In this document: piece after piece, positions 1,338 through 52,775 of the stretch
Numbering within the stretch: position 1 is the stretch's first letter
How the letters are laid out: each line of letters starts with the position of its first letter
Assembly: GCA_019721075.1 (NCBI GenBank)
Contig: JAHEAD010000007.1
Coordinates: 1 to 64,000, forward strand
Length of the DNA: 64,000 nt
Direction of reading: 5' to 3'
Source of the DNA: Candidatus Sysuiplasma jiujiangense
GTDB lineage: Archaea; Thermoplasmatota; Thermoplasmata; Sysuiplasmatales; Sysuiplasmataceae
Notes under the pieces: model-generated
Database searches by the model: none
What the model was told of the DNA's origin: nothing
What the model saw: only the letters and a program-made list of their open reading frames with translations
Made by a program: the position numbers and the translations under genes

Positions 1338-4300
1338 TCATGTCGTCTTTGTCGGTGATGACCTCACCTGTTTCGAAGGTTGAATCCAGCACCAGCACAC
1401 CCTCTTAAGCTTCAATCCGCCTGCCTGTCCTGCTGGTTCCTGACCAGAATCGGTCGACTCTTGCAGCAGTTCCCTCGCCTTATCGATGAGCCTGCCCTCC
1501 TTCCTTGCCTTATTCAGGGCAGAAACAAGACTCTGAGTGTTCGATCTGGCTCTGAACCTTGCAGCAAGTGTTTCGCCATCTCCCCCACTGTTTGCAAGTT
1601 CGTCAAATATCTCCTTCACTGCTTTTGTCGCTCTTAGAGGGGTACCTCCCGTCGTTATCTCTCTCTGCCGTCTTTTCTTAAGCTCCATTCTGAGCGATTC
1701 CTTCATTTCCCTCATTCTTTCAAGCAAACGACCGTAATCGATCCTCTCTCCATGATTTTCGGCTTCTCCATCAAGCAGTATGGAGACAGTGTCATTAATA
1801 GAGTCGCTTATTTCCCTGTCACCGTCGAAGTATTTGGTACGCCAGTAAAGATCTTGGCCGTTCCTGAACAGCACGAACATGGCGTCCCTGTCCCCCTTCT
1901 TGAAGGCGCCGATGCCATCGGGTATCCTCTCCAGCCATTCGATGGATCTGTCCTGGATTATCTTTGCGAGTGTGTCGAGAGGATCGCTCGTGAACTGCTC
2001 GAGCTCCCGAGAAAGCTTCTCTATTGCAGAAAAGTTTCCCTTTGACATTTCAATCTGTAATCCAAAATCCTTTGGATCCGCTTCCTCGCCGAGTGTCGTT
2101 GCGTCGATACCAATTGTGGCGCGTATAGCATCTAACTTCTTGTAAAGCTTCCCCATGAGGCCTAGAAAATGTTCCAGCGTTTTGGGATCGTCACGGTTGC
2201 CGTTCACGGAGAGTATGTTGCTCACATACACCTTGTCGTGGACGGAACCCATTCTGTCGACTCTTCCAATCCGCTGTATTAGAACGACAGGATTCCATGG
2301 AAAATCGTAGTTGACCACGTACTGCGCGTTTTGCAGGTTCTGCCCTTCGCTCAGAACATCGGTGCTGACGAGTATGCCGCCATTGTTCTGGAACTCTTCG
2401 ATTATCGCCGATTTCTCTCTGTTGCGCCCTTTTGCATCCCTGCAGATGCTTCCGGTAACCATCATTACGGGCAATGCAGCCGATGACTTGGAAAGCCTGT
2501 CGTAAAGGTATGTCGCGGTTGAGGTAAACTGCGAAAATATTATGACGCCGTTGTTATCATCTGAGGCAATGGCTTTGGTTATGACGCTTAATCTCGATGC
2601 AAAGGTAGCGAACTTCGGATCATTTGCAGGAATTTCCGAGAGAAGTGAGTCGATAGTCGTAACGTCTTCCCTGCACTTTGCAACAAACTGCGCCACTTCA
2701 TCCCGGGTCAGTTTGCACCTTTCCTTGATTTCCGAGTACTTCCCTTCCCTGAAGATATCTTCGGGAGAGGGCAGCTCCTCGTCAAAATCGAACAGCGGAT
2801 CGTTCCTGAATGATGGCGGAATGAAATAGCTCTTTTCGTCAGCGAATGCGATTGCCTTTTCGATATAGTCACGGAGCATGCCTAGTGTATCCTCAAAAGC
2901 TTTCGAGCTGCTTTCGAGGCGTTTGAATATACCGATGATTACAATTGCCTTGACCAGCTTCTTCAGGTTGTCCCTTTTGCTTTGCTCAACCGCCTTCGGG
3001 ACTGGGGTACCGTCCGGCATTTTCAACTGACCACTTAGCCTGTCTATGGACAGGTCGTAGAACATGAAATTCATTTTGTCGAGCAGCGCGTCTATCTTCT
3101 CGTAATCAATCCTGGCATCGTATCGCGTCAGCGGATCCATGTCAAGTTCCCTTTCGGGAAATTTGAGCTTCCCTTCGCCGAGCGCAACCGCGAGCCTTCT
3201 CGAATGCCTCACGATGAAGCGCTCAAGAACCTTCTCCAAATCGATGGGCTCTCCCCTCAGCCATCTCTTCTGGTTTGCAGTGAAGAAACCCTTGAGCGTC
3301 TGGTCAAGGATGTCGGTAATGCAATCCTCGGGAAGGTAAAGCGACAGGAGCGAATACAAATCCATCAGGCTGTTATTTACCGGTGTGGCGGTTGCTAGCA
3401 CCACCTGTGCCTTTGTCCTGAGCAGCAGATCCCTTAGAGCACCGTACCTGTTAGTGGAGGGGCGCCTGAAATCGTGCGCTTCATCCACAATGACGAGGCC
3501 CACGTCGGAAAACTTCTTGTTGTCGAAATAATCAGGATGATCGGAAAGTGACTCGGTTGAGATGGTTTCGTCGAGAGAGATATGCGTCTTGGCAAATTCA
3601 TGTTTCCATGTGGTGGCAAGGACGCTTGCTGGTGCTATGAGAAGGCATTTCTTTCCCTCCCTTATGGCATTCAGGGCAAGGCTGAGAGCTATCCTGCTCT
3701 TGCCAAGTCCGGTAGCGTCTGCAACAACCACGCCGTTGTACCGCTCAAGCATGAGCAGCGCGTCCCTGACTGTCAGTTTCTGGTGCGGCATAAGTGTCTC
3801 GAGCACCTTCTGACTTTCCACAGAAACATCAAGTGTATCCTTGTAAGTTTCATACAGTGCCTTTGCAGCTACCTCATAAGGGCTCCTTGTGGTAACGTAA
3901 TTCTTCAGTACCGACAGAAACTCCTCCTTGAAATCTGTCGAATGCTCCCACGCACCGTTAAACCATGACACAAGTTCATTGACCACTTCCCTATCCGTGT
4001 TCAGCATGTTGAGTTCCCTGTTGGTGACAAGGCCTCCCTTTGTGAAATTACTTGACCCCACGACGCCTATCCCTCTCTTCAGGTTGTCCAGTGCAGGAGC
4101 GGCACCGATGTACGCCTTGCCGTGAAAGAAGGGACCCTTCAGAGCCCTGACACTGACCCTTTCACCTTCAAAGAATTCAACTGCGTTCTGCAGAAGTTCG
4201 AAATAACGGCGTTCGTCCTCGTTTTCCTCAAGCTCTCTGATAATCTCCTCTTCCCATTTTACGCTTTCAGTCTGGGCGCGGCCAAGAAGAAACTTCAGTG

Positions 4301-4445
4301 GTTTGTTCCTGAGGGCGTCCTTCAGTTCACCATATCCATTTACGTTGAAGTAGGCGGATGCAATGGCGATATCATCCGCATCTTCAAGAGCGTTATTCAG
4401 GGTTGCAGACAGTTTTTCCTTTGAATTGTCAATTATCCTGGTCAT
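1338..4445 (-). CDS. PLD-like nuclease domain fused to SNF2-type helicase (putative defence/restriction subunit)
   Basis: This 1035-residue protein starts with a phospholipase-D-like region (single HxK motif HGKAYIG near residue 107, then GSSNFTKGG near 130). A superfamily-2 helicase of the SNF2/RapA type follows: Walker A ATGLGKS near 241, DEAH box VDEAHDF near 319, and C-terminal motifs SEGQNLQ and QRIGRVDRMGS near 700-728. The start ATG overlaps the end of the upstream methylase by 17 bases, so translation is probably coupled. A methylase paired with a SNF2 helicase resembles drmMI-drmD of class 1 DISARM and other R-M-like systems, but no drmA, drmB or drmC is seen here. The last 25 or so residues look like frameshifted sequence (cysteine/tryptophan-rich); a more natural tail is open in another frame down to 1273. 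Assignment to a defence role is inference. Confidence 0.85.
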   Translation of the reverse strand: MTRIIDNSKEKLSATLNNALEDADDIAIASAYFNVNGYGELKDALRNKPLKFLLGRAQTESVKWEEEIIRELEENEDERRYFELLQNAVEFFEGERVSVRALKGPFFHGKAYIGAAPALDNLKRGIGVVGSSNFTKGGLVTNRELNMLNTDREVVNELVSWFNGAWEHSTDFKEEFLSVLKNYVTTRSPYEVAAKALYETYKDTLDVSVESQKVLETLMPHQKLTVRDALLMLERYNGVVVADATGLGKSRIALSLALNAIREGKKCLLIAPASVLATTWKHEFAKTHISLDETISTESLSDHPDYFDNKKFSDVGLVIVDEAHDFRRPSTNRYGALRDLLLRTKAQVVLATATPVNNSLMDLYSLLSLYLPEDCITDILDQTLKGFFTANQKRWLRGEPIDLEKVLERFIVRHSRRLAVALGEGKLKFPERELDMDPLTRYDARIDYEKIDALLDKMNFMFYDLSIDRLSGQLKMPDGTPVPKAVEQSKRDNLKKLVKAIVIIGIFKRLESSSKAFEDTLGMLRDYIEKAIAFADEKSYFIPPSFRNDPLFDFDEELPSPEDIFREGKYSEIKERCKLTRDEVAQFVAKCREDVTTIDSLLSEIPANDPKFATFASRLSVITKAIASDDNNGVIIFSQFTSTATYLYDRLSKSSAALPVMMVTGSICRDAKGRNREKSAIIEEFQNNGGILVSTDVLSEGQNLQNAQYVVNYDFPWNPVVLIQRIGRVDRMGSVHDKVYVSNILSVNGNRDDPKTLEHFLGLMGKLYKKLDAIRATIGIDATTLGEEADPKDFGLQIEMSKGNFSAIEKLSRELEQFTSDPLDTLAKIIQDRSIEWLERIPDGIGAFKKGDRDAMFVLFRNGQDLYWRTKYFDGDREISDSINDTVSILLDGEAENHGERIDYGRLLERMREMKESLRMELKKRRQREITTGGTPLRATKAVKEIFDELANSGGDGETLAARFRARSNTQSLVSALNKARKEGRLIDKARELLQESTDSGQEPAGQAGGLKLKRVCWCWIQPSKQVRSSPTKTT

Positions 4446-7400
4446 TTATTGCCCCCTGTGATTTCAATCCCCTGTCGGCCTTGATCAAACGATCATCAAC
4501 TAGGTCAACGTATTCTTTATAAAACTCAGCTAGTGGAAAATTATTGGCGCCTATAGCTCTTAAGACTTCGATATCTAACTTTTGTCTGTCTTCCATTTTG
4601 ACCTCTTCAAAATATCTCTTTGCTTCTCTGTTCAATGAAACACCAACGTTTGCTAAATCCAGCTTGCCCAAATCCGGTGCGGGCATCTGTTCGTAGTCAT
4701 TTACCTGAATCTTTAATGCACCTCCACCCATTCTCTTACCAAGAAGTTCTTTACAAACGTGAAAGATTGATGAATTCATATACAAGAAAATAGTCGCCAC
4801 TTCAGTCTGCTTTGGATAAATCAGTACAAACATATCAGAAGCCAATGTGGAATTAACAGAGTATAAAGTGAAATGCCGATCGTTTACAACTTCGTTAGAA
4901 ATCAAATTCGCAGGATCGAGCCTTCGAAGATTATACCACTTTGGAGAGTTGTTTGAAACACTCTGCAATTTGTGGACCCCAATCACAACACTTCCTTTCT
5001 TGGTTCCTTTCTGAATGACGAACTCGCGGTTCATCGCTTGATGAATATACCTAAGCGAAAATTGACCTGGTTCTCTCTTAATGTCTGGATAAAATGCGTA
5101 CTTTTTGGGCTTCTTAATGATGTAAGTATTAGTCTCCTTTGGGCTCCTTACAACCGGAATGACGTCGGTACTATCTATTACGTATCTTTCTCTGCTCTCA
5201 TTTTCTACATAGATGAGCCCTTGATCCTTCAACCCACTTTCTTCCTTCGTCTTCACTCCCCACTCTTCGAACTTCTTCGGATTTGCAAGATAATCGGTCT
5301 CGTATAGGTGGCTTACGTCCTTCATGTAGAAGAAGTCGTTAGCGCCGGTTTTAATCCCAAATTTAATTTCAGCAAAATCTCCGAGTTTGTGTGTGAGTTT
5401 TGGAAGTATCTTTTCCATGAACACCTTCGGCGCGCGAAGGTAGAACCACTTACCGGGCTGGAGGCCCTTCCTCGGGATGGCGTAATGCAGTCGAACCTTT
5501 TCCAGCCCATAAGTCTCGAGGTAAGTAAAATCTATGGCGGGTTTGCTGTTTGGCCGCGAAGTGCATACGGTAACAACGGTGTTGATGTCTGCACCAAAGC
5601 TCCTCTCCCTCTGGCCGTATATTGCGACTATATTGTCCTTTATCCGCCGCTGAAGGGTTATACCGTAACCAGTCTCAAGCCATTTGTCAGATGTTATGAC
5701 GGACAGGACACCATCGTCTGAGACAAGATTGAGCGCCCTGATGAAGAAATACGCATACAGGTCGGATTTCCTGTCGATGCCGAACTTGTCGGTGTAGTAT
5801 TTCTTCCTGGCCTGTGGAATGCCCTCCTGCCTTACGTACGGTGGATTCATGACCAGTATCTGAGCCTTTTGCGGCATGTGCATTTCGATGACAGATGGGC
5901 TGTTCCCCGTCCGCTTCGATATTTCAGCACTCAAGCGAGCCATTTCCTTTCTCAGTTTTGCCTTCTCATGTGGAGAGTGTTCATTCACATACACGGCGTG
6001 AATGCGGTTGTACTGCTCCCTGACCGACTCCGTTTCCTGGTCAAGCGTGCGCTGGCCATCAGGCAGCTGCAGCGAGTCGTCAATGGCGACAATGTTGAAA
6101 TCCAGATTCGGCAGCGGTTCAGGTTCCTTCTCGTCTATTATCAGCGAGAGCCAGAGCCTGAGTCGGGCAATCTCGATTGCCTCTGACTCTATGTCAAAAC
6201 CGTACAGGTTGGGCAATATTCTCTTCTTGTGTGCCTCCGGATCTGATTTCCACCCTACAATCGCTTCCGCCTCCTGTATCAGCGCTATGATCTCGTTCAT
6301 AATCACCAGAAGGAACCCGCCTGAACCAACTGCAGGATCTAGCACCCTCAAAGAGAGCAGTCTTTCACGCAATTCCCTGACTTCCTTCTCGCTCTTCCTG
6401 CTTTTCATGTCTGCGATGAGCGCATGCAATCCATCCCTGAATTTCTCACTCTTTTCAGCTTCTTCGACAGTATCATGGCTGCCGAGATATTCAGCAAGCG
6501 CCCTCCTGCAGATGAATGAGCTTTCATTCAAGGGCGTGTAGAACGTTCCTTTGCCGCCCCTTTCATTCTCCGGCAGCATGTTCTCGAAGACAGTTCCGAT
6601 CAGGGCTGGATCGATGCTTACCTCCAGTTCAAGAGGGGCTGTTTCATCAACTGTGAAATTAAACTGGTTGAAGAAGTCCTTGGCATCCCTGAACATGCCA
6701 TCCATTACACGGTCAAGTTTCCGTTCCATAGAATCGGTCATGTATTCCTCGCGTTCGAACAGGGAGCCGTTGAGGAAGGGGATGCCATCTGTACCCTCTC
6801 TGCTGAGGCTTTCATAGAAAAGCTCATTGAGATGCCTATAGCCTTCGATGGTGTCGATGAACCTCCTGTTCTTTCTCAGCCAGCCTTTCCTCTGCAGGAA
6901 ATAGAGGAACATGAGTCTGCCAAGGAATCTCTGCGCATACGATGTGCTGTGCTTTCCCAGAAACGGCCTGACTGCCTTCTCGATATCCTGATAGAGTCTC
7001 CGATAACCTTCGAAGAACTCTTCGCGCACTTTCTCATAGGGGAAGAATGAAGTGTCGTAGAGATGTGAAAGCTCTTGAGGGTTGTCAACGTATCTGATGG
7101 AGTTCAGCACTTCGATGTCCGTCCTGTAAAGCCGGTCGGCGAGTTTGAGTATCTTCGCCTCACCGTAAGCGCCTTTGCCCGGAACTATCACGGCAAAGGA
7201 TTCATACCTGTTTGTGAACAGCAGCAGCGGTTTCAGCAGCCTGTTCTCCTTCCAGCGTCTTGCCGTCTGGGTGCACAGACTCCTCGAGAAGCCGGAGCCC
7301 GAATCAACCTCCACGATCGCGATTTCAATGAAGCTGTTGGAAAACATGCTTAAAACTCTGGCAGGTTGAAAGTTAGGCGGGAACACTCGCTGTTTTCTCA

Positions 7401-7500
7401 ATGTTTCTATATCCAGCATCTCTTCTTTCACCGGATAACCCAACTGTTCCAGTTGTGATTTCCAGAAAGAGACGTTGAAATTTATGACATCGCCTGCCAT
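4429..7500 (-). CDS. Eco57I-like N6-adenine DNA methyltransferase (type IIG/DISARM-like)
   Basis: A 1023-residue protein of the large Eco57I/PglX/DrmMI class, which methylates adenine in DNA using S-adenosylmethionine. SAM-binding motif I (DPAVGSGGF) lies near residue 387 and the catalytic NPPY motif IV (VMNPPYVRQ) near 550. The long C-terminal part from about 650 would hold the target-recognition region. The N-terminal 350 residues are helical and contain no obvious PD-(D/E)xK nuclease motif, so cleavage would depend on the partner. It is the first gene of a two-gene operon with the PLD-SNF2 helicase. An A/T-rich stretch lies at 7508-7523 just upstream, but it is too close to the ATG to be a certain TATA box. 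Recognition sequence unknown. Confidence 0.88.
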   Translation of the reverse strand: MAGDVINFNVSFWKSQLEQLGYPVKEEMLDIETLRKQRVFPPNFQPARVLSMFSNSFIEIAIVEVDSGSGFSRSLCTQTARRWKENRLLKPLLLFTNRYESFAVIVPGKGAYGEAKILKLADRLYRTDIEVLNSIRYVDNPQELSHLYDTSFFPYEKVREEFFEGYRRLYQDIEKAVRPFLGKHSTSYAQRFLGRLMFLYFLQRKGWLRKNRRFIDTIEGYRHLNELFYESLSREGTDGIPFLNGSLFEREEYMTDSMERKLDRVMDGMFRDAKDFFNQFNFTVDETAPLELEVSIDPALIGTVFENMLPENERGGKGTFYTPLNESSFICRRALAEYLGSHDTVEEAEKSEKFRDGLHALIADMKSRKSEKEVRELRERLLSLRVLDPAVGSGGFLLVIMNEIIALIQEAEAIVGWKSDPEAHKKRILPNLYGFDIESEAIEIARLRLWLSLIIDEKEPEPLPNLDFNIVAIDDSLQLPDGQRTLDQETESVREQYNRIHAVYVNEHSPHEKAKLRKEMARLSAEISKRTGNSPSVIEMHMPQKAQILVMNPPYVRQEGIPQARKKYYTDKFGIDRKSDLYAYFFIRALNLVSDDGVLSVITSDKWLETGYGITLQRRIKDNIVAIYGQRERSFGADINTVVTVCTSRPNSKPAIDFTYLETYGLEKVRLHYAIPRKGLQPGKWFYLRAPKVFMEKILPKLTHKLGDFAEIKFGIKTGANDFFYMKDVSHLYETDYLANPKKFEEWGVKTKEESGLKDQGLIYVENESRERYVIDSTDVIPVVRSPKETNTYIIKKPKKYAFYPDIKREPGQFSLRYIHQAMNREFVIQKGTKKGSVVIGVHKLQSVSNNSPKWYNLRRLDPANLISNEVVNDRHFTLYSVNSTLASDMFVLIYPKQTEVATIFLYMNSSIFHVCKELLGKRMGGGALKIQVNDYEQMPAPDLGKLDLANVGVSLNREAKRYFEEVKMEDRQKLDIEVLRAIGANNFPLAEFYKEYVDLVDDRLIKADRGLKSQGAINDQDN

Positions 7501-7654
7501 TGCTCAGCGAATATATCGATACTTTGATAATGGTTGCGCCATGCGGGTTTCCACGCATTCTATCCGAAACTGAAAAGACAAATTTGCATCGATATGCGCC
7601 AGTCCCGTTCGCTGCGCACCATGTCGCCTTATCAGCGCATACGCTGTAGAGATT

Positions 7655-8390
7655 CCAGTAGGCAATGTCTGTTGCCACGGCTGTGACGGTGGAGCCTTCC
7701 GTCACTTCATTCATGAGCTGACCGGGCCGTGTGCTGTCATCCCATGTCCCTCTCGTTGTCCTTACAGCCAGTGTCATCAGCGAATCTGTGCCTGAAAGCA
7801 CATGTATCTTTCCGTAATCCTTCCTCCCTTCCCTGTACCTGCTGCTCCTCCATGAGCCTGAGCCGTGGAGGAGCAGGCCAGATGAGTCAATCGCGATGAT
7901 AGACTCCTCCTTCCATGCACCCTCTGCAGTGTGCCCAAGGAGCGATTTCAGCGTGACCTCCATGGAAGGCATCCTGTTGTATGCCGCAAGTGTGCTGAAG
8001 TGCGGTATACGGCTCAGGAAACCTGTGAGCCTCCTGCAGCTTACATTGAGGCATGCCTTAACCAAGAGGCACAGCACAATGTCCCTCCTGGCTATTCTGG
8101 GTCTGCCGTCCCTCCTCTCCCAGTAATGCACCCTTGAGTTGTCTACAAGTCCTCTCAACACAGTGCATGCGAGGACGATCTCCTTGCACTGCCATTCGTT
8201 GTATTTTCTCCAGTCCCTCTTCCTTTCATGGCACCTGCTTCCGCAACGTTTACGTATGCTGTTTGCACTATCTCTTCTCAAGCATCCCATCCCCGGTTTT
8301 GAGCTTCGTGCTCGTGTTAAACCAGGATGGGATGCCCACAATAAAAATCAATTCACGAACACACTGGAATTACACTTTATGTGCAAGGCC
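7655..8390 (-). mobile_element. 5' half of an IS5-like insertion sequence (copy 1, truncated)
   Basis: The leftward frame encodes the N-terminal and central part of a DDE transposase: the first catalytic Asp in AIDSSGLLLHGSGSW and the second in ATDIAYWN. Similarity to copy 2 (52120-52775) then stops abruptly near 7655, 155 bases before the methylase start. The upstream end keeps a terminal repeat at 8376-8390 that matches, inverted, the other end of copy 2. The long frame continues to 7373, but its last 90 or so residues lie in DNA unrelated to the IS, partly inside the methylase gene. A perfect 11-bp inverted repeat (8282-8292 with 8325-8335) lies within the 5' part. The element cannot be active: it lacks the C-terminal catalytic Glu region and one end. 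Confidence 0.85.
8376..8390. repeat. Terminal inverted repeat of IS5-like element, copy 1
   Basis: The reverse complement reads GGCCTTGCACATAAA and is identical to 52120-52134 at the opposite end of the second copy. This fixes the two outer boundaries of the element. Confidence 0.85.
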
Positions 8391-10629: not shown

Positions 10630-11628
10630 ATGACAGATCGTGTCAGTGGTGTGAGAAGGCAGATAGCAATACCTGACCTGATTATCAGCGAGTCGAATGT
10701 TAGGATGGGAGACATTGAACGGGACCAGCATGAAGTGGACAAGTTGGCAAAGAGTATCAGTGAAACTGGATTGCAAAACCCGCTTCGAGTGAGAGAGATC
10801 CCTGGGCAACCAGGCCAGTATGAAGTCTACGAAGGAAGCAGAAGGTTGAGGGCTCTAAAGCAGCTGGGCAAAAGTCACGCAGACTGTATTGTGTCAAATG
10901 TTTCAGATGCAGAAGCTACTCTTGCGTCCCTTCACGAAAACTTGGTCCGTGGAGAGATATCCGCACTGGAGATATCCAAAGGCATTTACAAGATCATGGA
11001 GCAGATCGAAGGAGGAGACATAACCAAAAGGAGAGAAGTTGCAAGGAGGTTAAACTGGTTTAAAGACGATGGTCGTCCTGATACCAATCGAGTGACGAAG
11101 ACGCTCAAGCTTGGCGAGTTTCAGGAAAAACTAGGTGGAAAGGTAGCGGTTAAGTACAGGACAAAAGGGGATGCCATGCGCAAGGAAAAGGTGATTCCGT
11201 GGGCAGTTGCAGAGCGACTGCAGACGATTCTTGAGAATCCCGTCGTGGAATCACAACTGCAATCATTAAAGGTGCCTGAACGTCAGAAGGACTACGAAGA
11301 TTATGTCATGCGACTGGCTAATGCTTATCGTCAAGTCAGAACAGGGAGAAGAAAGGTCTTTGAAGAACGGTTCATAGCCAATGCCAATCAAGATCCGGTA
11401 GAAACAGCGCAGGAAGTGGAACGAGAATCGATCAAAAGCCAACTCGTCACATTCCGCCTGGATCCGGAACTCTACGGGTGGATTGTACAGTTTGCAGCAA
11501 AGAACAACGTCACGAAGACTGAAGCAATTATTCGAATTATACAGGCACATAGGGCCCACCTCTCTTCTTCTGGTCGACAAGACCAGATAAACGACACTAA
11601 AATGACAGTGGAGGGTCAAACACTATGA
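10630..11628 (+). CDS. ParB/Spo0J-like DNA-binding protein without a ParA partner
   Basis: A 332-residue protein. Residues about 12-110 match the ParB N-terminal (ParB/sulfiredoxin-fold) domain, including NPLRVREI, YEVYEGSRRLRALKQLG (ParB box-II-like GxRRxxA) and the Arg-containing LHENLVRGEISALE. A helical HTH-like section follows (residues about 110-160, SKGIYKIMEQI onward). The C-terminal part is unassigned but ends in a possible ribbon-helix-helix-like segment (VTFRLDPELYGWI, then TKTEAIIRIIQ). ParB proteins bind and clamp centromere-like DNA using CTP. No parA-like ATPase gene is adjacent, so it may be a solitary regulator or a plasmid remnant. A T-rich hairpin terminator follows at 11762-11817. 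Confidence 0.8.
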   Translation: MTDRVSGVRRQIAIPDLIISESNVRMGDIERDQHEVDKLAKSISETGLQNPLRVREIPGQPGQYEVYEGSRRLRALKQLGKSHADCIVSNVSDAEATLASLHENLVRGEISALEISKGIYKIMEQIEGGDITKRREVARRLNWFKDDGRPDTNRVTKTLKLGEFQEKLGGKVAVKYRTKGDAMRKEKVIPWAVAERLQTILENPVVESQLQSLKVPERQKDYEDYVMRLANAYRQVRTGRRKVFEERFIANANQDPVETAQEVERESIKSQLVTFRLDPELYGWIVQFAAKNNVTKTEAIIRIIQAHRAHLSSSGRQDQINDTKMTVEGQTL

Positions 11629-11833: not shown

Positions 11834-12433
11834 TTGGATAAGACTATTGTTTTCATAGATGATGGGTATCTCAGCAAGATTTCTAAGTTCCTAGGAGGAG
11901 GCACTTATCTCCAGATAGATATCAACCAATTCGCGATAAACCTAGCAAAGGCTCAGAACCTCTGGTGCGAAGAAGTCTATCTTTACACAGCTCCCCCTTT
12001 TCAATCTGCTGTTCCCACAACGGAAGAGGCAGAGAAGCGGGCGAGGTACGACCGCTTCACTTCTAGAGTGCGGAGGATTTCAGGCTTTAATGTCAGAGAA
12101 GGCAGACTGCAATACGTGGATGGTGAGTATCGCCAAAAGGGAGTAGATACGCTGCTCACAATGGATCTGCTCACGCTCACGAAAGAGAATTACCCTAACA
12201 TCAAGACCGTAATACTACTTGCATGCGACACCGACTTCGTGCCTGTTCTTCAGGAAATAAGACAAAATGGGGTCAAGATAATCCTTTATTACTTCACTGA
12301 TTACAAAAGGGGGTCCCTCTTTTCGATGTCCAATTACATTTTGACTGCTTGCGATCAGTGCGTGCTATTGGATATAAGCTACTTCACCATGAGTCTGCGG
12401 AAGCAGAGGTCAATTTCAAAGACCGAAGTATAA
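11834..12433 (+). CDS. NYN-domain (PIN-like) putative ribonuclease, LabA/DUF88 type
   Basis: A 199-residue protein of the NYN family, a PIN-like fold that usually cuts RNA with a metal ion. Conserved acidic positions are visible: FIDDGYLSK near residue 8, KGVDTLLTMDLL near 100 and LACDTDFVPVL near 130, followed by VKIILYYF. The start is taken as TTG 11834 because a GGTGGG ribosome-site-like sequence lies 6 bases upstream and the codon follows directly on an in-frame TAG. The last 20 or so residues after the core (SLRKQRSISKTEV) run close to an IS630-like remnant, so the natural C terminus may have changed. It lies downstream of the ParB-like gene on the same strand. NYN proteins are common in toxin-like and RNA-decay settings. 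Substrate unknown. Confidence 0.75.
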   Translation: MDKTIVFIDDGYLSKISKFLGGGTYLQIDINQFAINLAKAQNLWCEEVYLYTAPPFQSAVPTTEEAEKRARYDRFTSRVRRISGFNVREGRLQYVDGEYRQKGVDTLLTMDLLTLTKENYPNIKTVILLACDTDFVPVLQEIRQNGVKIILYYFTDYKRGSLFSMSNYILTACDQCVLLDISYFTMSLRKQRSISKTEV

Positions 12434-13122: not shown

Positions 13123-15813
13123 TCAACCGTAAATCTTGGTCAACTCGCGGAATACCTGATCCAAATGTTTCAGACATAGTTCTTGGTCGGTTTTCCCATA
13201 CTTTGATAGATGTTCCGTCCTACCGCGTACGACGTTCCCTCTTGCGCTCCTAATCCATATCAAGCTATTAAGAGAGTCCATCCAGATGTGTTTAGACTTT
13301 AGGCATTCAAGTAATTTCCCAGTCACAAGTTGAGCGTGTTCAGCTCGCAATCTCCCTGAGCCAGTGACATATCTCTTCACACCATATTTGTCTTCGTAGA
13401 ACCACTCTTCTTTCTTCACGATAAGCGCATCAACATCAGTATTTCCTAACTTGCATAATATTGCAAACATCAGATTTTCAACACAGTCCCATGCCATAGA
13501 TATTATCTGGAATGGAGGCGCAGTGGACCGTCTCAAACTTATGTAAATTTCCCTTGCATTTTCGTAAAAGATTATGTCTGGACCCAGGAGTAAAGGACTC
13601 TTGAATCTTACCTCAAGATCATCATCCTTCGACTCGGGTGGGGTTGGATTGGTGGAATAGTAAGTCACAAAGTCCCTCACGGAGTAATTGTCCTTCCTCA
13701 ACCCTTTGAAGAGAGATTTCAACCCTTTGTTAGCAGCATAAACTGAGGAGCCATTGCTTAGCATAAGACTTCGATTCGCGATATACTTTAGTGGAGTAAT
13801 AAAGGAGGGTTGAACTTTGTCGGCAGGCAGACCACGCTCCACGAGTTCAATAAGGTAGTTCCATCCTTCTGCTGCATTCATTCCGCGTCTTTCCATCTCC
13901 AAGTAGTAGTGGTAGATGGATATCATGCCATCCCTAGCTTCAGAGTCAACGAGCACTAGTCTGTCAATGGATTTTCCAATGGCGTTGTCAAAATCTCTCT
14001 GGTATTGTTCGATGATAAAGTCCTTGGAAATCACGGTCTGCTTTTTTTGAGCTCCGTATCTGCAAATGGCTTCCGCAAGAATGAGTGCTTGCCGTGGATT
14101 GCCACCACTAAGCGTTCTAAACAAAGATGAGCAGCCTTGTGCGAACACTTTATCATAAGAGGATCCTGAGCTAATTAGTCGTCTTTCCAACAGGTTTTGT
14201 ACATCCTGAGTACTAAATGGAGACAGCTCCCATGCGTTTCGATAGCCCACGTATGAGAGTTCACTTGAACTTAGAAACTGACCCCACCTCTCTGCACATG
14301 CGAACACAACAATAGAAACCTCCCGCAATCTCGAAAGCAGATATTGCGAGCTTTTAAAGAAATCGACAACTAGTGGGTCTTTATCACTTGGCAACCTGTC
14401 AAGACTATCAACACAAATGATCTTCTTATTGCCGAGACGGACTGCCTCGACTATTCTCTCCGAGTCGATATCTTCACCTTTCCCTGTAACTCCTCTGTAT
14501 ATCGATTTGCAGACTATGTTGTAGATATCTGCTGAAGTCCTGACGTTCGAAATTCTGTCGGCGACGTCAGTCATGATCACGTCATACCTAGAATCAAATC
14601 TGCTCTTGATGCTTTGAAACAGTGTTGTCTTACCAAATCCTCTTCCTGCTATCAAGAGTTTTAACTCGCCGTTATTCCCACGCAGATAACCGCCAACTTC
14701 GCTTAAGATCGTTTTTGAAGAGGGTGTTTCAACGAATCTATCTGACCCAAAAGCCATTGGAATATCTATGAAAGGATTTCCGATGAATTTCCAATAAGAC
14801 ATCCAGTCATCGCCTTCGATGATGTCGGCATCCGAAGATGGAATGCTCTCAACTCTCTTGGGTGCGGCGGTAGTCAACCTTGGCCTGATAATATCGAGAA
14901 CACTTTCTGGAAGACCCTGCTTAACTGAGGATAGGGCCGAATCCGTAGTCTGTAGCTTTCGAGGGAAATGCAGTTTTATGTTATTATCCCATAATGCATC
15001 TTCAACGATTCCTAATTCCCTGCCAAGTTTTCCTAACAAATTCTCGGAGAGATATGAAATTACGGGTCCGCTTATTGAATCTGGATACGAAGCACAGATT
15101 CGAACTGAGCCGTTTTCGATAGTCACAGCATCGATGTAGTAGCAGTTGAGCCAATGAAGTATGGATTCAGGAGAAAGCCCATACTGACCTATCTTGCTCA
15201 TATCAACTCTCCTGAAGCTACAATCGAGTTCATCTGAAATCCTGAGCAAACCGGTAAGAACGCCAATGCGAACGTTGCCCTCGCCAAGAGGAGAATTTTC
15301 GTGGGGATCAAACTCAACGGACGATTGGTGCCGCTCACAGAGTGTAGCTACAAAGGGCAAATATCGACGAACACCACCATCGCTCAAACCTACCTCAAGA
15401 ATGTTGTCATTTCCCTTGGCAATTTCCCTGACTAGATATCCTGAAGCTTTCCCGTGAGATGCCCTTATTACCGCGTATTCGTCATTAGTGAGTTCATCTA
15501 CAGGCATATTGATACCATGGGCCCGGGGGACTTGCATTCCGACGTCATGAAACAAGACGGCTAATGCAAATATAAACAGCTCATCTTTAGTCAGTGATTT
15601 GGTGTCATTATTGGCCAAATTTTGGCCCAACAATCGATGAGCCACTGAAATGATGCGATCACAATGTGAAATTGAATGATCGGTGAAATTTGGCAGTAGA
15701 TTGTTATTAAGTATCTTAGTGAGTTTGTAGCGAACCTGCTTCATGGTTTGAAATTGGAAAAAGTGCAAATGATCCTCAAGCCAATTCCAATTATCAGGTT
15801 CTTCCTCCTGCAT
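13123..15813 (-). CDS. HD-domain + STAND-like ATPase protein with possible HEPN-like C terminus (candidate defence effector)
   Basis: An 896-residue protein. Residues about 40-230 form an HD-type metal-dependent phosphohydrolase-like domain: an early His in HSISHCDRI, then FHDVGMQ near 86. Residues about 360-600 form a P-loop ATPase: Walker A GRGFGKTT near 388, Walker B IICVDSLDRL near 462, then SGGNPRQALILAEAICRYG, typical of the winged-helix side of AAA/STAND ATPases. The C-terminal region (about 740-896) is helical with paired patterns MAWDCVENLMFAILC and IRSARGNVVRGRTEH; the latter contains R-x4-H (RGRTEH near 862), the signature of HEPN ribonucleases. HD and ATPase assignments are seen directly; the HEPN call is inference. 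It stands alone in its operon, with a TATA-like TTCTTATCTT about 25 bases upstream of the ATG, inside an island rich in R-M and mobile genes. This suggests a single-protein antiviral sensor-effector. Confidence 0.75.
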   Translation of the reverse strand: MQEEEPDNWNWLEDHLHFFQFQTMKQVRYKLTKILNNNLLPNFTDHSISHCDRIISVAHRLLGQNLANNDTKSLTKDELFIFALAVLFHDVGMQVPRAHGINMPVDELTNDEYAVIRASHGKASGYLVREIAKGNDNILEVGLSDGGVRRYLPFVATLCERHQSSVEFDPHENSPLGEGNVRIGVLTGLLRISDELDCSFRRVDMSKIGQYGLSPESILHWLNCYYIDAVTIENGSVRICASYPDSISGPVISYLSENLLGKLGRELGIVEDALWDNNIKLHFPRKLQTTDSALSSVKQGLPESVLDIIRPRLTTAAPKRVESIPSSDADIIEGDDWMSYWKFIGNPFIDIPMAFGSDRFVETPSSKTILSEVGGYLRGNNGELKLLIAGRGFGKTTLFQSIKSRFDSRYDVIMTDVADRISNVRTSADIYNIVCKSIYRGVTGKGEDIDSERIVEAVRLGNKKIICVDSLDRLPSDKDPLVVDFFKSSQYLLSRLREVSIVVFACAERWGQFLSSSELSYVGYRNAWELSPFSTQDVQNLLERRLISSGSSYDKVFAQGCSSLFRTLSGGNPRQALILAEAICRYGAQKKQTVISKDFIIEQYQRDFDNAIGKSIDRLVLVDSEARDGMISIYHYYLEMERRGMNAAEGWNYLIELVERGLPADKVQPSFITPLKYIANRSLMLSNGSSVYAANKGLKSLFKGLRKDNYSVRDFVTYYSTNPTPPESKDDDLEVRFKSPLLLGPDIIFYENAREIYISLRRSTAPPFQIISMAWDCVENLMFAILCKLGNTDVDALIVKKEEWFYEDKYGVKRYVTGSGRLRAEHAQLVTGKLLECLKSKHIWMDSLNSLIWIRSARGNVVRGRTEHLSKYGKTDQELCLKHLDQVFRELTKIYG

Positions 15814-52134: not shown

Positions 52135-52775
52135 CTCATGATCTGGCACCCTTTGCGAGCAGCCTGACATTGTGGCATATCTCCCTTGCAGGCACCTCGT
52201 TTCTCCTGCTCACTGGTTTCCTGCACCTGAGCCTCTCACCGAATATCGCCTTCTCCATGTGGTGACGTGTTTCAGCCATGCTCATTCTGTGGTATCTGCT
52301 CCGGAACCTGTTCACGAATCTCATCGAGTAGTATGTCATGCTGTCGAATGCATCGCTGATATTCCGGGGGAGTACTGCATTGCCCTTCGGCCTGAAACAG
52401 GGCTGCAGTCCGGCAGCCCTTGCAGAGTTGCAGCATCTGTGGTTCCAGTAAGCACTGCCGGCCGCCATGGCTGTGGCGGCGGATTGTTCCGGCACCTCAT
52501 TCATGAGCTGATCGAGCTGGGTGCTGTCATGCCATGTGCCTGCTGTCCTTACAGCCAGTGTCATCAGCGAATCTGTGCCGGAGAGCACATGTATCTTGCC
52601 GTAATCCTTCCTCTCTTCCCTGTACCTGCTGCTCCTCCATGAGCCTGAGCCGTGGAGGAGCAGGCCGGATGAGTCAATCGCGATGGTCGACTCCTCCTTC
52701 CATGCACCCTCTGCCGTATGCTCAAGGAGCGATTTCAGCGTACCCTCCATGGAAGGCATCCTGTTGTATGCCGCT
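52120..52775 (-). mobile_element. 3' half of the IS5-like insertion sequence (copy 2, truncated)
   Basis: The leftward frame (52136-52759) gives AIDSSGLLLHGSGSW as in copy 1. Here AAGSAYWN replaces ATDIAYWN, so the second catalytic Asp is lost. The C-terminal part missing from copy 1 follows (LQPCFRPKGNAVLP, ISDAFDSMTYYSMRFVNRFRSR). The frame ends four bases inside the terminal repeat GGCCTTGCACATAAA at 52120-52134. Matching to copy 1 stops at about 52775. Together, the two copies allow the full-length element to be rebuilt. Confidence 0.85.

Follow-up and report, generated by a model that had tools for sequence, protein, structure and literature searches.

A methylase gene and a PLD-SNF2 helicase gene conserved as a pair in archaea, probably a compact system for marking host DNA and destroying foreign DNA that lacks the mark

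The left end of a 64,000-nucleotide stretch of DNA from Candidatus Sysuiplasma jiujiangense, referred to here as the window, carries two minus-strand genes, a predicted Eco57I-family methylase gene upstream and, downstream of it, a gene encoding a PLD-like domain fused to an SNF2-type helicase (called the helicase below). An original prediction had proposed this pair as a stand-alone and possibly undescribed defence set with a 17-base overlap, and the coordinates, strand and overlap given there were all found to be correct. The source genome comprises 2.29 Mb in 55 contigs, and the contig in question, C7, is 98,149 bp long. The first base of the window is the first base of C7, at an assembly break. 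Because the window edge is the start of the contig, genes to the left of the pair are unreadable here and were therefore sought in relatives. The features of the pair are as follows.

4429..7500, minus strand: predicted Eco57I-family N6-adenine methylase gene, 1023 amino acids (aa), from the open reading frame (ORF), Pfam and model matches
7051..7500, minus strand: methylase N-terminal alpha/beta domain, residues ~1-150; its divergence follows that of the helicase, and it has no family match
6313..6339, minus strand: AdoMet motif I, DPAVGSGGF, residues 388-396; unchanged in all 10 proteins aligned
5836..5847, minus strand: catalytic motif IV, NPPY, residues 552-555; likewise unchanged in all 10 proteins aligned
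4681..5433, minus strand: target-recognition region, residues ~690-940; exchanged independently of the remainder
4429..4445, minus strand: 17-base overlap of the methylase end with the helicase start codon; ten of the 15 pairs measured share this length
1338..4445, minus strand: PLD-SNF2 fusion gene, 1035 aa, a probable motor-nuclease and restriction subunit, from the ORF, Pfam and Foldseek
3948..4376, minus strand: PLD-like nuclease domain, residues 24-166, with HxK at 108-110 and GSSN at 130-133, from Pfam and motif alignment
2247..3821, minus strand: SNF2/SF2 ATPase core, residues ~209-733, with Walker A, DEAH, TATP and QRxGRxxR intact, from Pfam, motifs and the SNF2 fold

The domain content that had been proposed for both proteins was borne out by Pfam matches above the cut-offs and by intact motifs wherever these were checked. 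The methylase matched Eco57I (6.8e-25) and MmeI_Mtase (3.3e-12), and the helicase matched PLDc_2, SNF2-rel_dom and Helicase_C in that order. These PLD and helicase/ATPase domains were the only ones that Pfam saw in the helicase, and no sequence-recognition domain could be identified there. A motif table of 18 rows (13 archaeal and five distant actinobacterial proteins) showed the H and K of the PLD motif to be invariant in all 18 and the N of GSSN to be present in 17. The methylase N-terminal domain of the window protein had no Pfam match even up to an expectation value (E) of 10, and three of the six proteins tested each gave a single stray, sub-threshold match there. At the helicase C-terminus (1338-1390), a conserved RVCWC-like motif is followed by a tail of 16 residues, the longest amongst the 13 archaeal proteins aligned, which is perhaps a local change near the stop.

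Structural comparisons were made with models of both proteins. Matches of the methylase model, which involved mainly residues 155-988 and hence barely covered the N-terminal domain, included CamA, M.BseCI, PglX/BrxX, MmeI, LlaGI, LlaBIII and HsdM. The alignment to PglX (8c45_B) had a Z-score of 20.4 and a root-mean-square deviation (rmsd) of 3.6 over 450 residues, and that to LlaGI a Z-score of 18.0 and an rmsd of 4.0 with 376 aligned. The helicase motor aligned with the SNF2 protein 7oob_b (Z 18.8, rmsd 3.7, 379 aligned).

The conservation of the pair was surveyed in 292 genomes of the phylum by two separate searches, one for the helicase (E up to 1e-20) and one for the methylase (E up to 1e-30), which found relatives in 17 and 15 genomes, respectively. 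A methylase relative lay in the fetched flank of 16 of the 18 helicase loci, the window included, and the independent methylase search found a helicase match beside 14 of its 16 matches. Additionally, the seven genomes with a methylase at least 47% identical to that of the window were the same seven with a helicase at least 48% identical, and the two genes adjoined in each. A further genome scan returned 21 loci, of which six belonged to Actinomycetota (helicase 27-29% identical) and 15 to archaea (41-58% identical). The latter are labelled Thermoplasmata, Nitrososphaeria, Nitrososphaerales, Marsarchaeota, Hadesarchaea, Bathyarchaeota, Caldarchaeum, Calditenuaceae, Aigarchaeota, Thermogymnomonas and an uncultured archaeon.

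Together with the window and loci L024, L026 and L027, the 15 scanned loci constitute an archaeal subfamily of 19 distinct loci. The methylase was found directly upstream of the helicase, or one gene off, in 18 of them, which bears out the conserved two-gene neighbourhood for which a survey had been suggested; in the 19th (L050) the contig begins inside the helicase, so that the position of the methylase cannot be judged. Amongst the 18, the contigs of L043 and L044 carry only the C-terminal tail of the methylase and that of L045 a part of it, L047 has a split methylase, and L040 has one gene between the two (an OLD-like AAA-TOPRIM gene, L040:7989-10004). Overlaps were measured in 15 of the 19 loci, and the genes overlapped in 14 of these, by 17 bases in ten and by 4, 4, 8 and 20 bases in the other four. 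The methylase and PLD-SNF2 genes are thus a real conserved unit, beyond chance. In Thermogymnomonas acidicola (L054) both genes are split into many ORFs, through decay or sequencing errors.

The genes around the pair are not conserved. Comparison of 156 neighbouring ORFs of at least 110 aa yielded eight similar pairs between different loci, of which only that of HSDR_N proteins, at two loci, lay directly beside the pair. Family scans covered 145 of 157 neighbouring ORFs, the 12 left out comprising a single ORF of 573 aa and eleven in the range of 110-179 aa. Since the flanks are unshared between loci, the unit consists of the two genes, and the proposal of a stand-alone set stands for the archaea. 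The HSDR_N nuclease-like gene adjoins the methylase gene on its upstream side at both loci (L041:5696-6541 and L052:5467-6507), whose hosts differ.

A wider family was found beyond this subfamily. The actinobacterial branch, with helicases 25-29% identical, has the same gene order and a methylase of ~1300 residues; the methylase or fragments of it lie upstream in 11 of 13 loci, and in two the contig ends there. The Eco57I domain was found by Pfam in L055, the one locus scanned, and Eco57I matches occurred in six of the six genomes examined. In a survey of 296 genomes of the actinobacterial phylum, close helicase relatives were present in eight, the query's own genome included. Distant relatives were also found in 30 plasmid records, where they are mostly annotated as 'helicase-related protein'. 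One relative, on a Vibrio plasmid (L081), has a different arrangement, beside a DUF4391 gene, a downstream methylase and a second helicase gene. Viral carriage of this subfamily was rejected, the only viral matches being one weak and partial match in viral contigs and two phage records at 25-27% identity.

Several distant relatives carry additional genes between the methylase and the helicase. In L031 and L032, both of which were scanned, these encode an HTH-IrrE protein and a DUF4411 protein, and L033 and L037 have intervening ORFs of the sizes of that pair. Others (L029, L078, L079 and L080) have AbiEii, GmrSD or genes without family assignment; after the GmrSD insert comes a protein whose RelA/SpoT match is sub-threshold. 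As a matter of speculation, the intergenic space might be a slot for guard modules. These insertions would also be expected if the pair were the visible part of a larger system, with other genes unlinked or lost past the contig edge, and so would the position of the pair at the very start of C7, where positions 1-1337 contain no ORF of at least 80 aa of their own. However, the inserted genes are of different kinds between relatives, and no third family except HSDR_N recurs at the pair, such that we consider a larger system to be quite unlikely.

The two genes and their parts do not all share one history. The exchange test used the 12 of the 19 loci in which both genes are whole, with 13 loci available for comparisons of the methylase only. 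Between loci, pairwise helicase identity rose and fell with identity in methylase residues 1-480 (Spearman rho 0.93, Mantel p 0.0002) but showed no relation to identity in residues 715-940 (rho -0.09, p 0.64). At the nucleotide level, L046 and L049 are 64.9% identical in the core and 83.1% in the recognition region, whereas L026 and L052 are 74.3% identical in the core and 66.0% in the recognition region. In comparisons like that of L046 and L049 identity goes up at about residue 690, and in those like that of L026 and L052 it goes down closer to residue 780. The methylases of the window and L048 are 74% identical over residues 181-480 but 26% identical over residues 801-940. Such a pattern is expected of a recognition region that is swapped through recombination, with the motor and the methylase core evolving jointly. 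The exchange of this region and the co-divergence of the core suggest that the specificity of the helicase comes from the methylase, whose N-terminal half it contacts. The gene pair, its co-inheritance, its intact motifs and the independent exchange of the recognition region are direct observations, as is the lack of DUF1998 beside the pair and of any DUF499 match in the host genomes.

The same observations bear on whether the genes could be a housekeeping or repair helicase beside an orphan regulatory methylase. The fold of the helicase, which is that of a generic SNF2 protein and nothing more particular, would suit such a role. The patchy occurrence (17 of 292 genomes), the unshared flanks and the exchanged recognition regions do not, and on patchiness and flanks a housekeeping role was rejected; we regard it as extremely improbable.

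We consider it reasonably probable that the pair is a two-gene ATP-dependent restriction-modification (RM) system with a Type III-like layout, in which the PLD-SNF2 protein is the motor-nuclease. Such a system calls for an intact methylase with an independently varying target-recognition region, which was found, and for a partner with intact ATPase and nuclease motifs, which was also found (the D of HKD is replaced and the HxK kept). In the mechanism we propose, the C-terminal target-recognition region of the methylase would recognise a short DNA sequence, and the enzyme would methylate adenine (N6) in the host copies of that site. The PLD-SNF2 protein would dock on the methylase, probably by way of the N-terminal domain of that enzyme together with its core. 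On meeting an unmodified site, the complex would fire the SNF2 motor, leading to translocation or a state switch on double-stranded DNA, and two PLD domains would pair into an active nuclease, with cutting as the outcome. We infer complex formation, the type and site of methylation, translocation, PLD pairing, cleavage and defence. The absence of a separate restriction subunit, part of the original prediction, understated the case, in that the PLD-SNF2 protein probably fills that role.

Several observations weigh against this RM interpretation. No methylase relative was found in the flanks of two of the 18 helicase loci (L036 and L039), nor a helicase match for two of the 16 methylase matches (G092 and G134). 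None of the 13 aligned archaeal proteins keeps the D of the HKD motif, which is replaced by A, V or T, while D or E occupies this position in four of the five actinobacterial proteins, and in one archaeal protein (L045) T replaces the N of GSSN. The AlphaFold models are of moderate quality, with mean predicted local distance difference test values of 74.5 and 76.2 and predicted template-modelling scores of 0.65 and 0.50. The lowest E-value in the Foldseek search with the helicase model was that of SauUSI (7clg_B, 5.9e-12), a match of low TM-score (0.13 by query; rmsd 17.0, 391 columns), and SauUSI was not among the 50 best matches listed by a second structural aligner, nearly all of which were SNF2-family motors. 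Both fold searches were run with the whole model rather than the PLD domain by itself. The rank correlation rests on 12 loci only, and shared vertical history alone would also produce the co-variation of helicase and methylase core, an objection of which the exchange of the recognition region is independent. Finally, the enzymatic steps are putative, as the biology has been read from sequence and models.

Type III RM enzymes have a beta-class methylase as their Mod subunit, and Type ISP enzymes (LlaGI and LlaBIII) have a similar domain set in a single chain. The pair differs from both in having a methylase of the Eco57I type with a PglX-like fold. It resembles Type III systems in its two genes, recognition located in the methylase and a helicase-nuclease partner, as these are described in the accessible parts of PMC4267653, where the Res nuclease is given as PD-(D/E)XK; the nuclease of the pair is instead of the PLD kind and its motor SNF2-like. 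For both features that define Type III enzymes, a PD-(D/E)XK Res and a beta-class Mod, Pfam found other domains (PLD and Eco57I-type). By analogy, the pair would be a two-gene Type III plan built from other parts, namely a PLD-SNF2 motor-nuclease and a PglX-like methylase.

SauUSI likewise has a PLD domain followed by an SF2 ATPase in one chain, and according to the available portions of PMC7913695 it dimerises via its PLD domains and translocates with ATP, with cutting proposed to occur on convergence. The same portions describe a Type IV enzyme, a single protein that cuts modified DNA and has its own SRA-type recognition domain; in each of these respects it is unlike the pair. That the enzyme with the lowest Foldseek E-value is of Type IV raises the question of whether the PLD-SNF2 protein cuts foreign-modified DNA, with the methylase having another role. 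Nevertheless, the SRA-type domain described for SauUSI (PMC7913695, in part) has no counterpart in the helicase, in which Pfam shows PLD and helicase/ATPase domains only, and an exchanged recognition region in the methylase is a sign of sequence specificity. Such a Type IV-like use is very unlikely in our view. CglI and NgoAVII, in turn, are ATP-dependent RM systems that unite a PLD nuclease, a separate SF2 ATPase and a methylase, but in three genes, with a C5 methylase and with the PLD domain fused to a B3 recognition domain rather than to the motor (as given in the sections of PMC4267653 consulted).

The original prediction had likened the pair to DISARM class 1, in which the helicase DrmD is SNF2-like and DrmMI is an adenine methylase. 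This resemblance did not hold beyond those generic features. The helicase scored 135.7 bits against one DrmD model (cut-off 610) and 98.5 bits against another (cut-off 950), and 149.3 bits against the NCBIfam model phospholipD_antiphage (cut-off 1100); seven distant helicase relatives that were scanned were also far under these DrmD and phospholipD_antiphage cut-offs. In PADLOC, the top model for the helicase was a candidate described as 'HKD+Snf2' (168.5 bits, the best DrmD model giving 125), and the methylase scored higher with the Type IIG model (149.6 bits) than with PglX (63.6) or DrmMI (39.6).

Marker families were searched with profiles in 18 host genomes and 14 control genomes. DUF1998 (PF09369), the marker of DrmB, matched in two host genomes, always off the contigs of the pair, and in eight controls; the genome of the window had none. 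The DUF1998 contigs measured 47,200 bp, more than 52 kb (one contig) and 11,705 bp, and the pair contigs in those genomes 25,449 bp and 9,775 and 4,618 bp. DrmB was therefore not seen consistently beside orthologues, and the claimed absence of drm genes stands for drmB. It is less firm for drmA and drmC, as DrmA and DrmC were not among the best 25 of 191 PADLOC families listed for the scanned neighbouring ORFs. With no nearby DrmB-type gene and with helicase scores so far under the DrmD cut-offs, DISARM membership was rejected.

A Swi2/Snf2 helicase with an N-terminal HKD/PLD nuclease occurs together with an N6 methylase, a DUF499 ATPase and DUF3780 in BREX-related type-2 (BR-2) systems, as far as the accessible parts of PMC12839542 and PMC7641849 describe them. 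The pair shares the N6 methylase and the fused helicase, with PLDc_2, SNF2-rel_dom and Helicase_C in order though at a score far under the phospholipD_antiphage cut-off; it differs in that DUF499 (PF04465) was found in none of the 18 host genomes (one of 14 controls was positive) and in that its methylase is of the Eco57I/MmeI type. DUF3780 (PF12635) was also found in none of the host genomes, though no control was positive either. Pfam gave no match in the methylase to DUF1156, a family that we take to be equivalent to COG1743. BR methylases are assigned to COG1743 in the available text of PMC7641849. PglZ (PF08665) matched in four host genomes, above the cut-off in two, and in two controls, the host matches being partial (frames of 347-428 aa) and on other contigs or ~400 kb from the pair. 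With DUF499 absent and no PglZ at the pair, membership in BREX and BREX-related systems was rejected.

These results also bear on a BREX- or DISARM-like block, in which the methylase would mark self and the PLD-SNF2 protein would load on unmarked DNA and stall or degrade it generally, with no sequence-specific cutting. PglX/BrxX is amongst the top structural matches of the methylase, and the helicase scores against DrmD, BrxH and HmaA models in PADLOC, as such a block would predict. On the other hand, the partner genes are missing from the pair (DUF499 from all 18 genomes, DUF1998 from its contigs, PglZ being partial and distant), and the HxK pair is kept in 18 of 18 proteins. We therefore consider a general block unlikely, albeit the most credible of the alternatives to an RM system.

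No named two-gene system of this composition was found in PADLOC, NCBIfam or the literature searched, REBASE and subscription papers lying outside that search, and the suggestion of a possibly undescribed system holds within these bounds. The literature comprised the accessible parts of PMC12839542, PMC12458937, PMC11090510, PMC10734518, PMC4267653, PMC7913695 and PMC7641849. The parts of the pair are familiar; what is worth testing is the way they are combined, how far the pair reaches and the exchanged recognition region.

Other features of the window were noted in passing. By eye, the flank at 1-1337 resembles a broken Schlafen AlbA_2 gene around 840-1020, and an intact AlbA_2 gene stands beside the pair in L024. 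A TATA-like stretch was seen by eye shortly upstream of the methylase start. The ORF at 7373-8341, which extends into the methylase start, looks similar to the ORF at 52136-52759 and has a sub-threshold DDE_Tnp_1 match; both are probably transposase remnants. A ParB-like gene (10630-11628) is followed by an NYN-domain gene (11834-12433), and a similar ParB-like protein is encoded near the pair in L048 (18431-19240). An HD-CE protein of 896 residues (13123-15813), with a sub-threshold ATPase match and no PADLOC match, may be a further conflict-system gene. The G+C content drops to 0.44-0.45 at 10-16 kb, which is not decisive, and no tRNA genes were found in the window.

Altogether, the pair, common to many heat- and acid-loving archaea, is probably a compact system by which a cell labels its DNA and destroys foreign DNA without the label. 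It is possible, and we hold this with rather less confidence than the RM reading itself and somewhat short of an even chance, that it represents an unnamed ATP-dependent RM type common to archaea and Actinomycetota, with specificity in an exchangeable region of a PglX-like methylase, the PLD-SNF2 protein supplying motor and nuclease, and, in the distant branches, an intergenic slot for toxin or defence guards in case restriction fails. If the RM reading is true, motor-driven restriction would be organised very economically around a PLD nuclease, in two genes and with no separate specificity subunit or accessory ATPase, and PglX-like methylases would be shown to work without the remaining BREX parts. 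The exchangeable recognition region would then provide a natural series of enzymes that differ in specificity but share one motor, and thermophilic and acidophilic archaea would have a testable candidate system.

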